64,000 nucleotides of DNA, taken from the NCBI GenBank assembly GCA_021030905.1, contig JAGFMI010000023.1:310001-374000 (forward strand), written 5' to 3'. Position numbers and translations under genes: made by a program. The notes beneath the pieces are model-generated. The model searched no databases and had not been told where the DNA came from. It was given only the letters and a program-made list of their open reading frames with translations. Source of the DNA: Pyrenula massariospora. Lineage: Eukaryota > Ascomycota > Eurotiomycetes > Pyrenulales > Pyrenulaceae. The number at the start of each line of letters is the position of its first letter. Positions within the stretch are counted from its first letter, which is position 1. Below are positions 627 to 16,651 of the stretch, one piece after another.

Positions 627-1780
627 TTAAGTCTGGGATCTCAACTCCTCTCCCAGATCATTTTTCACTCCAATGATACTATCATAATCGCCATTCTTGA
701 CTATGCCACCGTTTACCTCCACGTACCCATACTCATGGCCTTGCAGCACGCCAATGCCGATATTGCCATTGTGTACTTTCGCACCGTCACTGACAATGAT
801 ATGATGATATTTGTGACTACTGTCACCCGCTCGCTTCATTGCGACCGACCGGCTTTCAGTTTTCGCGAGACTAGCTGTGTTCCCATTAGAGACCATGCAG
901 TTGCCTTTACAGACAATCTTCGTGAAAGTGTGGGAGCTGTTGATTTCTGAGGAAGTAGTCAGTTGATATTTCGCACACGTTCATTACACGTTTGAAATAC
1001 TTACGGCCTATAGGCGTGGATCTTTCAATCTCCTCAATCCTAGTATCAATATCTCCTTCGGTAAAAGTTTGCGCAAAGTTTGAACTCGGTGGATCCTCTG
1101 CAGCAAGAATCAGAGGGGACTCGGGCTCACGCCATGCGTGAGAGCAACGGCTTATTTGCTTGAGTTGAGGAGCGTTCTTGTATGTCACTTTGTCAGCATC
1201 TTGACCGTGGTACCTGGGCGGTTTTCCGTGTGAAACTTACGCTTCCCTCGGTATCCATTGGTGAGTGATCCTTCAAATTCCCAGACCTTCTATTCTGAAG
1301 TTGTTCAACGCTTTCGCTAATCCTGGATAACTGGACGGTCTGAAAGCCTTCGACATAGGAGCTCAAAATGGCCCTTCTGCATTGAAGGGCGTTGAAATGC
1401 TCAGAGATCTTTCTTGTTCTGCTTCCCTGGGCAACTCTCATGTATCTTCGTGCCAGTGAACTGCTAGCCAAGTAATTTGTCTCGTGATTAAGAAGCAACA
1501 GAAGCTCCTGGGCGTCTGTCAAGGTGCCGTCAAGCTGGTTGGACAGGCCCAACTGAGCTTCATTTAAGTTGGCCGCGGGCTTGCCGCGGACGCTGAGGGT
1601 CTTCTTGATCACTCGAGCCACCTCTACGAGACAGTCAATCTCACTTTTGTATTGGTCGAGACAGCGTTGAGATTCAGACGCGGCACGGCGAATCCTGGAA
1701 ATCATGGAAATTATCTCAACGCCGTAATGTATGACCTGACTCACGGACGTGACGACACCCACAAACTCCAACCCTGACAT
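627..1780 (-). CDS. HeLo/SesA-like cell-death protein with three HET-s-related amyloid motifs
   Basis: Three exons on the minus strand (1780-1241, 1176-1005, 946-627) give a 343-residue protein. The start is ATG at 1780; the codon upstream in frame is TTG. Both introns have GTAAGT donors, CTGAC-type branch sites and AG acceptors. Residues 1-165 are helical, beginning MSGLEFVGVV, and resemble the N-terminal HeLo-like/SesA domains of fungal cell-death effectors and NLR proteins. From about 240 to 330 there are three tandem copies of a motif of about 20 residues (242-261, 281-300, 307-325) with the pattern H-x-[YF]-x-x-[IV]-x-V/C-x-G-x-x-V-x-NG[ND]. This is the layout of HET-s-related amyloid motifs, which template amyloid from an NLR onto a pore-forming effector. 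Known family biology: the effector is soluble until nucleated, then acts on the plasma membrane. The role here is inferred. The protein appears intact and is divergent to the gene at 2553, whose N-terminus carries the same motif. Confidence 0.75.
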
Positions 1781-2552
1781 AGCGGCAAGCAACCGGTAAA
1801 GGGGAAACTACTCTCGTCATGCAATTTTATCTCAGCCTGCTCGCGGTCGGTATGGCTAAATGACGCGAAGGCCTGATGAAGCTACCGAGGCATTGCAGTG
1901 TGCCTTGCAAGTTCAAAATCTAAGGGTTTGGATTTTGATAAGAGTTTCGGCGACAATCACATACTGCCACGAGCTTTGGACATTGTGACACGAAACGACG
2001 AGGCTGCTGAGCTTTGTACCAGGATAATGTTCGCTACCAGATGTTTTTTGCCGAGAATGAGTGAATGTAGCATCCTCAAACGGTCAAACCGACCAAAAAA
2101 TACCTTTCTAAGGATGCCTTCAAAAATGGGAAATAAGTCGCCGAAGGTGCCCGATGAGTGATTTGAGTTTACATTTTGCAGCCATTTTTTGGCTTTCTGG
2201 AATGACAAGGATGGTGCATCTGAAGGCGTCATTGTACGACATTGTGAATTGAGATCCCTTGCAATCGCGGACTATCCAACTTTGATATCCTAGCATCAGA
2301 TAGTCGTGGTACCAGCCGGGAAAGATCCAAAATGAACCGATTGCTTTTTCGTTGCATCGACTGCAAGGAGCATTTTCCCCGTGAATCCTGCCTGTTCGAT
2401 CGTATATAAGCGAGATTCGTCCTCTCCTTCACCTCTTGGCCTGTAAAACTTTTTCCAGCCGCATGTTCATTTTCCAGCCCTTAGAAAAGTTGACCACCGA
2501 CCCAAGTCATTCGTCGTTATTTGTCCCTCTCTACTCAAGAGCTCGGATCAAA
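1781..2552. promoter_or_regulatory. Bidirectional promoter of the amyloid-motif gene pair
   Basis: This 772-bp spacer separates two divergently transcribed genes that share an unusual motif, so co-regulation is likely (inference). A clear TATATAAG sits at 2403-2410, about 145 bp upstream of the plus-strand ATG at 2553. Short reading frames inside it show no family signature. Confidence 0.5.
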
Positions 2553-3074
2553 ATGTCTCGTTATGGAGCTGTCAGTGTATCAGGGCGGTCAATGGTGCAT
2601 AACGGGTAAGACCATCTTGTGAGTACCTCCAAGAATGAGACCACGAATAACCTATCATCCAGTGAAAGTCACAACAACGGGACGATCAACTACCGCTACG
2701 GAAACTCCGAACGATGGATTGAGAGAACGGTCGGGGTGGAATACCGGGTCGACGACCTTAGACGACAGCAGGACGCTGAATACAAAGCCCAACGACGCCA
2801 TGTCGATCATGAAGGTCGGCGAGAAGCCGAGAGACAACGAGCCGCAGCCACTCGGCGACAAAACGATATGGAGCGCCAGCGACGGGCGGACTTTGAGAGG
2901 CAGCGCCGCGCTGCATACGAAAGGGAGGCCGAGCATCGTCGCATACAGGACGCGTTGTATCAACGGGACCGCCGTCAGAACCAAATGATGCAGGCGGCTA
3001 TGCAAGCAAACCGCAGATTGATGATGGAGATGCTGAATCTACGGCAAGGAATGATGGCTCGGCGGCGGCATTGA
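2553..3074 (+). CDS. Small protein: N-terminal HET-s-related amyloid motif plus charged coiled coil
   Basis: Two exons, 2553-2605 and 2663-3074, give 154 residues. Without splicing, the first exon meets TAA straight after the motif. A 57-nt intron (GTAAGA donor, CCAG acceptor) restores frame to the long downstream frame. Residues 3-18 read RYGAVSVSGRSMVHNG. They align without gaps to residues 283-298 of the divergent effector (KYHHIIVSDGAKVHNG), with 7 of 16 identical, including the VHNG end. In known systems this position belongs to an NLR receptor that seeds the effector. Here residues 35-125 are instead an Arg/Gln/Glu-rich helix with ERQRRA-type repeats, and the C-terminus is Met- and Arg-rich. 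No nucleotide-binding domain is present. It could be a receptor-less adaptor or seed, a regulator, or a shortened former receptor gene. The first exon rests on one splice inference. Confidence 0.6.
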
Positions 3075-5492
3075 AAAACTCTGGGATTGTCGCAAAATCC
3101 GAAGAAGGTTTTTCGAGCTTCCAAATAGTCTATTTCACAGATCGGAAATTGTGTTAGCTTTAGCTTTAAGTAATATCGATCTGATTTTCTTTCTTACCGT
3201 GGAAACGCTTGGGAGGGTACATGATCTGAACCAATCCGTAGAGAGCCGTTGATTGAATGATGAGACGCAAAAAGCCGTGAAATCGAAGCTATTCCACTTT
3301 ATATTGACGTGTCAACTCATGGAAGTAGAGACAATAAGTCTCATTACTCGGGCATAGTAAGCTGCTGCAGATGAGCATCCTTAGAAGCGTGTCCTCACCA
3401 TCCTGTACCATTAATTTTCATTTTTCATGCCGTGCTGTACGAATTAGAACCGCGTAAACTACATCTCTAGCGGCTAATCACCAGCCGCAGGTTTTGGACC
3501 AGTCCCAAATAAAGACTCGGCTGGGGTTCGTGCCTTGCGTCATGATATGCTTCACCCGTCTCGGAGCTTCCAATGATAAGCACGTGCAAATACCTATCGG
3601 GAACAAAGCAATTTCGATGTGTAGTCTTAGCGTACTGAAAGCGCCTTATTAGAATTTCATAGAGGGAACCAATCTTCTCTCATCAATTTATAATACTCAG
3701 CAGCTTCTCCCTGTTGTCGTTTTGTCATTGTTCCATCTTCTTGCTCAAAATACCAGCAGTGCATTTTCTTCGTACCTCGCTATGCATCGGAAATTGGATT
3801 GTGACGAAATGTACTTATGTTGCCCAAAATGTTTTCCATGATCATACTTGTACTAGTCTTCCATGGGACGACGCAGGAGATTTTCGTCCTGGAATAGGCT
3901 GAGAAGGTTGACCGTCCTGCTCCAAGGGACAAGTACTAAACGGTCTGGGGTACTAACTCATGAAGATTTGCAATTTTACAAAGAGGGGGGCGTAAACACT
4001 ACCTACATGGGCAGGTCGGCGACTTTTCGTTTCCGCGCCGAATGCGTGGAAGCCAGGGTGAGTAAGAAGGGCAGTACAAGTATTTCCGTATAATTTGTGG
4101 AGACGATATTGCTGTCGCATCGTCAGATGTGCGCTGGCCCAGGTCAGTCTACACGGTCTTACTCACATGCGCACGTTTCGAGCTCCGAGATTGAGGGGTG
4201 ACGCAGGAGCTTCGAGCTGGTCCAATGGCCAGTAGATTCCATGCACGCTGTATCCTTTTCTTGAAGCAGGAAGATGTAGTTTCGAGATGTTTGACCCGGA
4301 TTTGATGAGTACCATTACAGATTTTTTGTACCCTATCCGTTTTTCGTTGCCATTGAGCTTTCGTGATGGCTGTGACCGTCTATGCTATCTCATGGCACCG
4401 CGGTCGCCACCAGGCTCCTAGCTAGATCAATTATTGTAGAAGCATCTCAGAAGCTATACACTGAACTAAATCGATATGGATTCGTCGCATTGTCGTAGTA
4501 CCTCAAGTGGTTGCGTAAGCAATTAATACAGTTAAAAGATGAAGACGACAGTAAAATAGAAACCCGGAAGGAGCTAGAATCAGAGCCGACTTTCCAACTT
4601 TTTGCTACTACAAAGAGGTTTGTTGCCTTCTTCTCCACGTAATTGTAAGTAGCTGAGTATATCACAGCACGGGCCACTGAGGTCGGCTTTGATCGCCAGA
4701 TAGGGTACCTACCGACCTGGCACGAGCCTACCACTGCCTACCTGGTATTTTACCTATCTAGTGCTTTAGCGCCGGAAGCTTTTGTTCTTCCAGACCGAAC
4801 CTTTTCAGACAGCAATCTTACCTTATGCAATCGCTGCCTCGACATCGACACCGTTCATCGCCCTACGACATCACTCGATGGACGTCGACCAATGTCATCT
4901 GATGGTGTCTGCATGTTTGATTCTTTCAGCGGCACTCAGAGCCAAGTCGTCCTCTCGAGTATCCCGACCCGCACCGGCGCCTGGATTCTGATCCGCTTCC
5001 CCCTCGGAATGCCACAAACGATCTTATCAGACAATGCAAAGTCGTTACACAGTTCTCCCACATGCATGATATGCTGTGAGACCCTGTCCAAATTCTCCGC
5101 CAATGTTCTAGTCATGAAACATCGGGCCAGGCGCAGAACCAACCTTCTCCGGCAATCATGGACCGTTTCTCCGCCACGGCTAAGGCTCGAGGAGTTTCTC
5201 CCCGCGTTCCCCTAATTTACACGTTTCCCATTCGCGAGAAACCGAGCTCAGGGTCCACGCGTTCCTGCAGATAGCAGATCACAATCATCAAAAAATCAAT
5301 CTACATGCGGTGGAATAATCACGGGAAAACAATGATGCTTTTTTGGCCGCACATCTCTGGGCAAAGGATCGAGGATCTGGATGTTTCGATGAGGAATGTA
5401 GGTATTATTGTAGGGTATAACATGAGAGACAACCTCCAATTTCATATCTGTCAGGTACACAAACTTTCATTTTGTAACTCATTCAATCCAAA
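3075..5492. other. Gene-poor stretch of about 2.4 kb
   Basis: Only short reading frames occur and none has a recognisable domain or coherent splice joins. The last 400 bp should hold the promoter of the GH7 gene at 5493. No terminal repeats or transposase remnants were seen. Confidence 0.5.
5178..5205 (+). promoter_or_regulatory. Possible XlnR-like and CreA-like sites upstream of the GH7 gene
   Basis: GGCTAA, the core bound by XlnR/XYR1-type cellulase activators, lies at 5178-5183. CCCCGC, the reverse complement of a CreA/CRE1 site (SYGGRG), lies at 5200-5205. They are about 290-315 bp before the cellulase start. Six-base matches are common by chance, so this is only suggestive and rests on the nature of the downstream gene. 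Confidence 0.3.
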
Positions 5493-6960
5493 ATGGCTTC
5501 CCTTGCTGTCTTCGTCTTCTCATCTCTTGCTGCCGCCCAACAGATTGGCACCAACACCCCCGAGGTCCACCCAAACCTCCCATCGCAGAAATGCACTCTC
5601 ACAGGCGGTTGCCAAACTGTGAATACCTCCATTGTCCTGGACTCACAATATCGGTGGCTTCATACTGTTGGCGGGTACACAAATTGCCAAGCAAGCGGAG
5701 CTTTTAACACATCAATCTGCCCTGATGCTGTGACTTGCGCCCAGAACTGCGCCGTAGAGGGTGTCGATTATTCTGGCTACGGGATCGCCGTGGATGGCGA
5801 TGCAGTAACGCTCAATCTTTTCCTTAACAACAACAATGTGACAACGCTGGCGTCTCCTCGGGCCTACTTGTTGGCAGAGGACGGCACCAACTACGATATG
5901 TTCAAGTTGCTTAACCAAGAAATTAGCTACGACGTGGATGTCTCTCAAGTCCCATGCGGCATAAATGGCGCTCTGTACCTTTCTGAGATGCTTGCAGATG
6001 GCGGCTTCAACAATTCCACTAATCCGGCCGGTGCAAAATACGGCACCGGATACTGCGATGCGCAATGCCCAGTGACCCCTTTTGTCGTTGCTGACGGCAC
6101 GTACGAGGTAGGCAAAAATCATAGTCGCAGCTTCTCCCGTATCTGACTTTTCTCCAGGCAAACCTCGATTCCCACGGCAATTGCTGTTCAGAGATGGATC
6201 TCTGGGAAGCCAATTCTGCTGCTACACAACTTACTCCTCACCCCTGCGACTACAACACATCGGCTCCTTATCTCTGCAGTGGCAACACCTGTAATACCGT
6301 ATGCGACAAGGCCGGCTGCGAGTATAACCCTTACCGTCAAGGGAACCCGGACTACTACGGTCCTGGGAAGGTCGTCGATACGACAAAGCCCTTCACTGTA
6401 GTAACTCAATTCGTTACAAACGACAATACGACTACAGGGCAATTGACCGAGATCCGGCGATTATATGTACAGGACGGAACGGTCATTGCGAATGCCAAGA
6501 GCAACGTAACAGGCCTGGCACCGTATGATAGCATGAGTGACGAATACTGCACAGAGCAGAAAACGCTTTTCGGTGACACGCAGAACACCTTTAAGCAAGA
6601 AGGTGGCTTTACCCAATTCTCTCGCGCACTCGCAAACGGAATGGTGCTTGTATTCTCTATTGTAAGCCTCAAAATCCCTCTTCATCTTTAACCATGCTTA
6701 CGAATTTTGCGCAGTGGGACGATGCCTCTGGTGGTATGACATGGTTAGACGCGTACACTGGAGATGGCACCCACACAGGAGATATCAGGGGCCCGTGCTC
6801 GATTGACTCTGGTAATGCGACAGCACTGCAGCAGAACTATCCAAATGCGCAGGTCACATTCTCGAACATCAAGTCAGGCGATATTGGGTCAACATTCGGT
6901 GGCGGGACAACTGCAGGTGGACTGAGGAGGAGAACGAGGAGCAGGTTGGTGAGGAATTAG
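5493..6960 (+). CDS. Glycoside hydrolase family 7, endoglucanase-like (Cel7B type)
   Basis: Three exons (5493-6107, 6158-6661, 6715-6960) encode 454 residues. A short signal peptide ends near residue 16, before QQIGTNTPEVHP, the classic mature start of GH7 cellulases. The catalytic block CCSEMDLWEAN (residues 214-224) keeps the nucleophile, Asp and acid/base (E217, D219, E222). CGINGALYLSEM, AGAKYGTGYCDAQCP and GMVLVFSIWDD are family hallmarks. The VEGVDYSGYGI and GKVVDTTKPFTVVTQF segments look closer to Trichoderma EG1/Cel7B than to cellobiohydrolase I. That implies internal cleavage of beta-1,4-glucan outside the cell, though cellobiohydrolase is not excluded. The protein ends after the core with a basic tail and has no CBM1 or Ser/Thr linker. 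Both introns are about 50 nt. Confidence 0.92.
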
Positions 6961-9968: not shown

Positions 9969-11414
9969 TCATGCCACCATCCACCAGGCACCACCAAGCA
10001 CACCAATGAGCACCAAAGTGGTGAGGAAGCCAGCTCCCACTCTGTCGCCCGTTGTGATTGCCTCTGGTGCCGGACCATTCGGCCCTGCATTGCTGTTCGA
10101 CCCTGCGGCGGGGTTGCCCTTGCTGGTGCCGCCAGTGTTGTTTGTGACCGGCCCAGCAACCTTCGTGATCAAGTTCGACTGGATGACTTCCAAGGCGCTC
10201 ATCTGCTCGCCGACACCCATGCTTCCATCGAAAGAGTTCTTTGTCCATTGCAGGCCACACTGGTTGCCATCTTGCCCGCCGCTACAGGATGAAGCTGCCG
10301 CCTGTGCGGATTTCTGAAGCTTGGGCATGATCAGGTCATACGTGAAAGGGGCAAGCTTAGTAGTTGCGGCCATCCAGCGTGCAAGGTAAGCTTTGAAGGA
10401 GCGTTGATCTGTGTTGCATTTGCCGTTGGGTTCACAGGCAACTTCGAACATGACGTTATTTTGGAAGAAAATTTCGGCTTGCGTGAGGATGCCTCGGATG
10501 CGTTGTTCCCATACTGGGTCTCCTTTTGTCTAAAAGCATGTTAGCTGGGTCACAGCTGGTAAAAGAGAGACTTACCAAATTGTACATGTTGGCAGCTCCA
10601 AGGAGGAATACACCAGAATTATAGGACCATTGGATGTGGTTCTGAGAGGTACAATTCTGAGTGTCATCCGTCCCGTCGAAGAATTCATATTTTGAACTCA
10701 TAAGACCAACAGCCGATACCCAATCCCACATCCGATTCGCCCAGTCAGCATATGTCTGGTTACCCGTATACATGGCTAGACGAGCGGCCATGTTGAAGAA
10801 ACAACCGTTCGAGATCGTGTTCTTGTAATTGTAGCCATTGTTGAAGGTAAAGATTTGCCATCTCAAACCGCCACCGCAAGTTTGCGTATCCCATCGTTGT
10901 GCTTGAGTGTTAAACACGGCTTGAGCGAGGGAAAGCCACTGCGGTTGGTCATCAGGAGGGTTTGGGAATTTTTCCTCTGCAGCAGAGAGGGCAGCCATCC
11001 CCCAAAATGCCTGGTCGTCGTTTCCTTCGGTCTTGGTTTGATTCGGAGGCATGTAATCTTCATTTGGCCCGACTTGGAAGAGAAGCGCTTGCGTGGTAAC
11101 ATCGTTGTATGTAGTATCCCCAGTATAGTACCAGTAGTCGACCAACGCTCCGAACATTGCGCCAGCTTCCCACCAGTAATAAGGCTGGGGAAGATTCCCA
11201 GGGACATCACCAGTTCTATTCCCGGTATAATAGGTCATCATGCCACGGGCAATCGTGGATGCGGCAGCCTTGATGGAATCTGGAAACGTCAGCGGTTGTA
11301 GGCTCACTTCTACTCGGAACGTCTACCTGTGCTTGAAAGGTCTATGTTGATAGCGGCGGTAACAGCTTGAGCGCCGAGTAGAGCTAATGCTCCATGCCTT
11401 GTAAAGGCCTTCAT
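9969..11414 (-). CDS. GPI-anchored GH76 mannan endo-1,6-alpha-mannosidase (DCW1/DFG5 family)
   Basis: Exons 11414-11327, 11279-10576 and 10529-9969 encode 450 residues, the usual length for DCW1/DFG5. A signal peptide ([21 protein letters not shown]) leads into an (alpha/alpha)6 GH76 domain. [17 protein letters not shown] is typical, and [12 protein letters not shown] carries the catalytic Asp pair at about residues 117-118. The tail is Ser/Gly/Asn-rich and ends in a hydrophobic stretch, fitting a GPI signal. Family role: cross-linking GPI-anchored mannoproteins into the cell wall by acting on the GPI glycan. The gene runs convergently with CBP4, 264 bp away. Confidence 0.93.

Positions 11415-13106: not shown

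Positions 13107-16651
<3,545 letters not shown>

Follow-up and report, generated by a model that had tools for sequence, protein, structure and literature searches.

Two divergent genes of Pyrenula massariospora may form an amyloid-signalling unit of the HET-S kind in which the seed motif is borne by a small non-NLR protein, a reading suggested by their sequences to which we assign a probability of roughly 0.45. They lie in the stretch of DNA analysed here, hereafter the window, which spans 64,000 nucleotides (C15:310001-374000) of a 37.8 Mb genome in 33 contigs. The locus occupies window positions 627..3074, and its coordinates, its gene models (with splicing inferred from sequence) and the motif match between its two genes agree with what a first-pass annotation had claimed (Table 1). 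The pairing of the motif is real and goes far beyond chance.

Table 1. Features of the two-gene locus, in window positions.
Feature	Position	Strand	Details and basis
Minus gene	exons 1780-1241, 1176-1005, 946-627	-	ATG at 1780, stop 627-629, predicted 343 aa
Minus gene introns	1240-1177 and 1004-947	-	inferred from sequence
Minus exon 1: ATG and putative N-terminal HELL/SesA-like domain, residues 1-180	1241..1780	-	open frame; hhalign, phmmer
Minus exon 2: linker	1005..1176	-	frame fits; AAG acceptor inferred; without coding bias of its own
Minus exon 3: C-terminal repeat region and stop	627..946	-	gene model
Repeat r1 (H3 = residue 243, G19 = residue 259)	879..935	-	comparison with r2 alone
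Repeat r2 (H3 = residue 282, G19 = residue 298)	762..818	-	motif comparison
Repeat r3 (H3 = residue 308, conserved G = residue 323), one residue shorter	687..740	-	r1+r2 profile with one deletion
TATA-like element upstream of plus gene	2403..2408	+	function inferred
Plus gene	2553-2605 + 2663-3074	+	ATG at 2553, stop 3072-3074, predicted 154 aa
Plus exon 1: ATG in CAAAATGTC context and receptor-side-like motif r0	2553..2605	+	match to r1+r2 profile
Plus intron, proposed (GTAAGA...CAG)	2606..2662	+	inferred from sequence; phases match
Plus exon 2	2663..3074	+	Arg/Glu-rich predicted helix, ~residues 45-120 (2742-2969); Met-rich C-terminus, 121-154 (2970-3071)

The motif match was assessed with a profile built from the effector repeats r1 and r2 only and blind to the plus gene, which was run over 348,978 six-frame 18-mers from the window and the fetched loci, some of them overlapping, a sample and not the whole genome. 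A single match outside r1 and r2 came within 3 units of 27.5, namely the 18 residues that start at the ATG at 2553, which rank first outside the two repeats. The opening word of the plus gene had been described as identical to a minus motif at seven of 16 residues, and the same seven are common to the plus motif and r2 over 19 aligned residues. When the profile was made from all three repeats, the score of the plus motif was reached in none of 20,000 shuffles of the whole plus protein and in one of 20,000 when the shuffling was confined to the first 40 residues. The motif-bearing ATG lies 772 bp from the effector ATG in a divergent layout. The motif r0 contains no D, E or K, four S and one H in 18 residues, a composition that agrees with the receptor-side motifs of PMC4518210, in which D, E and K are scarce and S and H plentiful. 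With its single N-terminal motif the plus gene is like the adjoining gene of a HET-S/NWD2-type pair; it is not, as that gene would be, an NLR with a NACHT or NB-ARC domain. A fortuitous likeness or a wrong gene model would be the simplest alternative, since plus exon 1 is short (53 bases) and has no coding bias, and intron 1 of the minus gene requires an AAG acceptor, a less usual one. We regard this as very improbable, given the first rank among the 348,978 18-mers outside r1 and r2, the placement of the motif at a start codon whose context is good and whose splice sites agree in phase, and a profile score reached by 0-1 in 20,000 shuffles.

The same genome contains a canonical HeLo-HRAM/NLR pair, with a HeLo protein at C3:360827-361717 (from C3:360842, plus strand) and an NLR domain at C3:359626-360114 (minus strand) in divergent layout, which serves as a control. 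Its partner is a divergent NPHP3_N-type NLR, and its HeLo protein gives a sub-threshold match to PF11558 (26 or 23.1 bits, cut-off 32.2). Both pairs were scored in one way over 337,180 19-mers. The motif match of the control pair, whose receptor motif we placed by eye, scores 11.5, and 49 of the 19-mers, own repeats among them, score at least as high; that of the window pair scores 27.5, a value equalled or exceeded by two, both its own repeats. On the window r1/r2 profile, r1 of the control HET-S-like protein scores 23.5 and is second among the 19-mers outside r1 and r2, behind one at window 4072 (25.0), a ranking that supports HRAM kinship.

HRAM effectors have two C-terminal 21-residue repeats joined by a linker of usually 6-18 residues, with G at position 19 and hydrophobic residues at 5, 8, 10, 16 and 18. 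In the minus protein, r1 is the top other match when r2 is used alone (36.0, the next being 31.0, among the 337,180 19-mers), and r3 is the top match outside r1 and r2 to the r1+r2 profile when one deletion is allowed (348,978 18-mers). The position-3 H recurs at residues 243, 282 and 308, so that there are three repeats. The linker between r1 and r2 is 18 residues long, within the usual range, and the extra r3 follows after a linker of 5, outside it. G19 is present in every motif, with one gap in r3, and positions 5, 8, 10 and 16 fit, r1 having C at 10. Two features count against reading the locus as an amyloid pair: position 18 is N, not hydrophobic, in all four motifs (r0-r3), and K or R at position 15 occurs in r2 only. 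The H at position 3 that marks HRAM3 is found in all three effector repeats, the plus motif having S, and judged by motif positions the minus repeats appear HRAM3-like. A profile search for the HET-s motif family, which had been proposed as a check, listed no Pfam match to PF11558 (the HET-s prion domain) for the pair proteins at E values up to 10; that family matches just 38 of 155 HRAM proteins (PMC4518210). Two single-sequence structure models were of low confidence (pLDDT 33.8 and 55.5), and the 33.8 model is uninformative on a beta-solenoid.

The minus gene had been claimed to join a HeLo/SesA-like domain to HET-s-related motifs, and this holds, with three repeats and a domain that hhalign places, weakly, on the HELL/SesA side. 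Aligned to a profile of 11 HELL/SesA domains from the same genome, residues 1-135 gave a probability of 76.5% and a score of 35.4, as compared with at most 18.4 for 100 shuffles, at most 13.2 for 13 natural decoys, and 25.0 and 26.7 for two true HeLo domains. Members of the family left out one at a time scored higher (48-87), and profiles made from N-terminally trimmed domains gave the minus domain just 0.4-6.9%. Among 405 stop-to-stop ORFs from NLR, HeLo, HELL and SesA loci, its best matches were two ORFs upstream of NACHT matches on the same strand (blastp 8e-4 and 0.007; phmmer 1.5e-4 for the first). A Pfam search with the N-terminal domain gave no match, and the 12 structures that Foldseek returned (none at E<=0.001) included no HeLo structure. 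The N-terminus may thus be a divergent HELL/SesA-type domain, a kinship that is weakly supported, remote and not proven; by profile comparison, the minus protein weakly shows the N-terminal HeLo/HELL/SesA domain of an HRAM effector. Codon log-odds for minus exon 1 are 0.097 per codon, one antisense frame being higher at 0.162; for exons 2 and 3 they are uninformative and indicate no coding bias.

Exon 2 of the plus gene is an intact frame of 136 codons whose log-odds of 0.214 per codon, possibly inflated by higher G+C, are the top of its six frames; two genes of the training set reach 0.147 and 0.144. The 154-codon stop-to-stop frame in which it lies is open in just 0.24% of 5,000 shuffles. 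Since no methionine precedes residue 87 in this frame, translation of the full length would have to begin further upstream, and exon 1 offers a start ATG, a fitting phase and a GTAAGA donor. The absence of a consensus-like donor within exon 2 makes additional exons unlikely. The TATA element, the start context and the donor were judged against their consensus forms. If the transcript is not spliced, an in-frame TAA directly follows the motif (window 2553-2609) and the product is an 18-residue motif peptide. In the predicted full-length protein some 25 residues, polar and aromatic, separate the motif from a stretch rich in Arg and Glu, and the end is Met-rich. The first-pass annotation had spoken of a charged coiled coil. 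The charge stands, in that the whole protein is rich in Arg and Glu and free of proline (34 R, 14 E, 8 D, 1 K, 0 P), and from residue 45 onwards charge pairs at i,i+4 are opposite in 14 cases and like in 4. Coiled coil as a firm label was dropped, the heptad a/d positions being hydrophobic at just 2-5 of 8 in each of six 28-residue blocks; with so few, the region is just as likely to be a single charged helix. Pfam returned for the whole protein a sole match, DUF5401 (E 0.061), and for exon 2 alone one further match at chance level (E 8.1).

The partner was also said to have no NLR domain, and this is borne out: no NLR family is among the Pfam matches of the 154-residue protein, and the window gave no NACHT, NB-ARC or NPHP3_N match among the best candidates scored (90 of 92 for NACHT, 21 of 21 for NB-ARC and 150 of 166 for NPHP3_N). 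The nearest NLR-domain matches listed on C15, its sole listed NACHT and NPHP3_N, lie at 508 kb, some 195 kb distant. The NLR repertoire of the genome is large, these counts being lower bounds: at least 75 NACHT, at least 14 NB-ARC and at least 139 NPHP3_N matches, the last forming 124 clusters when matches within 2 kb are merged, alongside at least 20 HeLo matches.

In PMC4518210 a motif-bearing adjacent NLR is reported for 98 of 155 double-repeat effectors, hence 57 lack one, and PMC3321046 mentions one effector with a sigma motif that has no STAND gene next to it. A missing NLR alone is therefore not rare; what is unusual here is a non-NLR neighbour that opens with the motif. One explanation, already put forward as a remnant of an NLR locus, is that a former NLR body was deleted and the motif exon is now joined to an unrelated helix exon, perhaps with loss of signalling. 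The divergent layout, which is that of the control pair, the frequency with which HRAM effectors adjoin an NLR, and the failure to find a relative for either protein all fit such an origin. In addition, the block at 4501-5000 has dinucleotide ratios of 1.04 and 1.00, past the limits used to indicate RIP, but the block at 6001-6500 is past them too. However, tblastn with the 405 ORFs, from which NLR repeat domains are mostly absent, detected no trace of an NLR body around the pair (C15:309285-315480): the top two matches (E 1.8e-5 and 1.5e-4) fall on the effector's own exon 1, and the remaining ones are short, at E 0.002 or weaker. The intact exon 2, with its rarely open stop-to-stop frame, likewise weakens the remnant reading, as does the control pair, in which the NLR motif and the beginning of the NACHT-type domain lie in a single open frame. 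On balance a relic or fusion seems somewhat unlikely.

Elsewhere in the window, frames that we named by eye from their translations resemble a GH7 cellulase (5478-6688, plus strand), a GH76-like mannanase (9972-11322, minus strand) and, over a long frame at 13857-16580, a fused arginine-biosynthesis protein (kinase plus reductase). The block at 6001-6500, inside the cellulase-like gene, has dinucleotide ratios of 0.97 and 0.97, like the block at 4501-5000.

The search for relatives in a set of 5.8 billion proteins found no orthologue of either protein. Residues 1-60 of the plus protein gave no candidate with three common words, and for the minus protein none of 2452 candidates matched at E<=10. 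As a control query, the genome's HET-S-like protein retrieved 100 HeLo proteins, those that are named being fungal, with the nearest from Polychaeton citri, a capnodialean dothideomycete, at 57% identity. This search needs common 5-residue words and so can miss remote relatives. No paralogue of either protein was listed in the same genome at E<=10, and sequence searches of the PDB brought up nothing in one case and two weak, unrelated matches in the other. The lack of relatives has two sides: it agrees with rapid evolution of an immune locus, yet it denies a test of conservation.

The plus protein could also depend on a receptor located elsewhere, as in the earlier suggestion of a seed under a separate receptor. 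With 55 of the 75 NACHT matches fetched together with their upstream sequence, and 56 of the 124 NPHP3_N clusters lying in fetched loci, no motif in the scanned loci (56 of 124 NLR clusters) came to within 3 units of the score of the plus motif. The scan is blind to weak matches, and a receptor as weak as that of the control pair (11.5) would not stand out from the background, so a distant cognate receptor may exist. As an adaptor, the plus protein would be a seed that some distant receptor, or another sensor, recruits or clusters by binding its helix. The long helix and Met-rich end could serve as a docking surface, and the genome has at least 124 NLR clusters; no such sensor was found, however, and the proposal is conjectural and in our view unlikely. 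Alternatively, the plus protein might act as a decoy or brake that binds the effector repeats or caps fibres, and so limits activation from a distant cognate receptor. One motif copy on a charged helix, adjoining the effector, is what such a brake might look like, but no comparable receptor motif occurs in the 56 of 124 clusters, from which weakly matching receptors would escape, and we give a brake the same low credence as an adaptor.

Of the readings offered at first pass, a minimal adaptor-effector pair fits best, with one genome as its basis. The course of events that we infer for it, from splicing through the amyloid fold and seeding to cell death and the control of clustering, would be the following. 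The minus protein, a predicted membrane-acting cell-death effector, would be kept silent by an unfolded C-terminus with its three HET-s-related repeats. The plus protein would display a single repeat at the very start of its chain, with a long charged helix that ends rich in Met as the carrier. Once it is abundant or clustered, the N-terminal motifs might stack into a beta-solenoid that templates the three repeats of the effector and thereby frees the helical domain. Were the intron at 2606-2662 retained, the product would be a free 18-residue motif peptide, near in length to the minimal seeding peptide of NWD2, which has 21 residues (PMC4344463). The fuller proposal is of a naturally occurring death switch that works through amyloid and has a small non-NLR trigger of its own, whose charged helix supplies clustering and whose splicing may set the dose; it is a tentative one that we hold to be rather doubtful.

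If functional, the pair would suggest that a small dedicated protein may replace a large immune receptor. A separate gene made of a motif and a helix would, if the reading is true, show that a motif plus clustering can suffice in nature; the two-gene system would be small enough for reconstitution, and it would argue for searches that start from something other than NLRs. Described motif partners are NLRs, effectors or the prion form of HET-s (PMC9815663, PMC12261475, PMC7889193, PMC3321046, PMC12881547, PMC5485727, PMC12258605), and we found no natural short non-NLR motif partner in the literature, subscription papers and supplements being outside the search, so that absence is not proven. 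In PMC4344463, NWD2(1-30)-GFP, which lacks the NACHT domain, induced prion formation and activated HET-S in the fungus; work in mammalian cells cited there, in which NWD2(1-30) was reported to be insufficient, counts against the amyloid-pair reading. This construct is like the plus protein in placing the motif on a non-NLR carrier, but it was made in the laboratory, whereas the gene described here is natural.

One close likeness is to HET-S/NWD2 of Podospora anserina (HRAM1), which also combines a helical death domain, C-terminal repeats and an adjoining gene with one N-terminal repeat. The neighbour there is a NACHT-WD NLR, in contrast to the helix-rich protein of 154 residues here; there are two repeats there and three here, and the domain of the minus protein seems nearer HELL/SesA and its motif HRAM3-like. 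With the HRAM3 systems, of which PMC5485727 gives a Cladophialophora example, the window pair has in common H3, hydrophobic residues at 5, 8, 10 and 16, and G19, and differs in N at 18 and in having no NLR next door. Another difference is that the HRAM3-like motif NLR12 is reported in single copies in PNP_UDP effectors (PMC9815663). HELLF with its NLR (HRAM5) and HELLP/PNT1 (PP) likewise have a HELL-domain effector that is activated via a motif common to the adjoining gene, but unlike the plus protein both partners are NLRs (PMC7889193). The sigma cluster of Nectria haematococca (Het-eN, SESA, SESB) is similar in that the motif is common to proteins of the cluster including non-NLR ones (PMC5485727); an NLR is present there, however, and the extra partners are predicted effectors. 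A non-NLR trigger as such is already known from the [Het-s] prion, since in HET-S incompatibility the HET-s prion form activates HET-S (PMC7889193). There HET-S is triggered by an allelic variant of itself, whereas the trigger proposed here would be encoded by a distinct gene, unrelated to the effector, whose product has one motif at the N-terminus.
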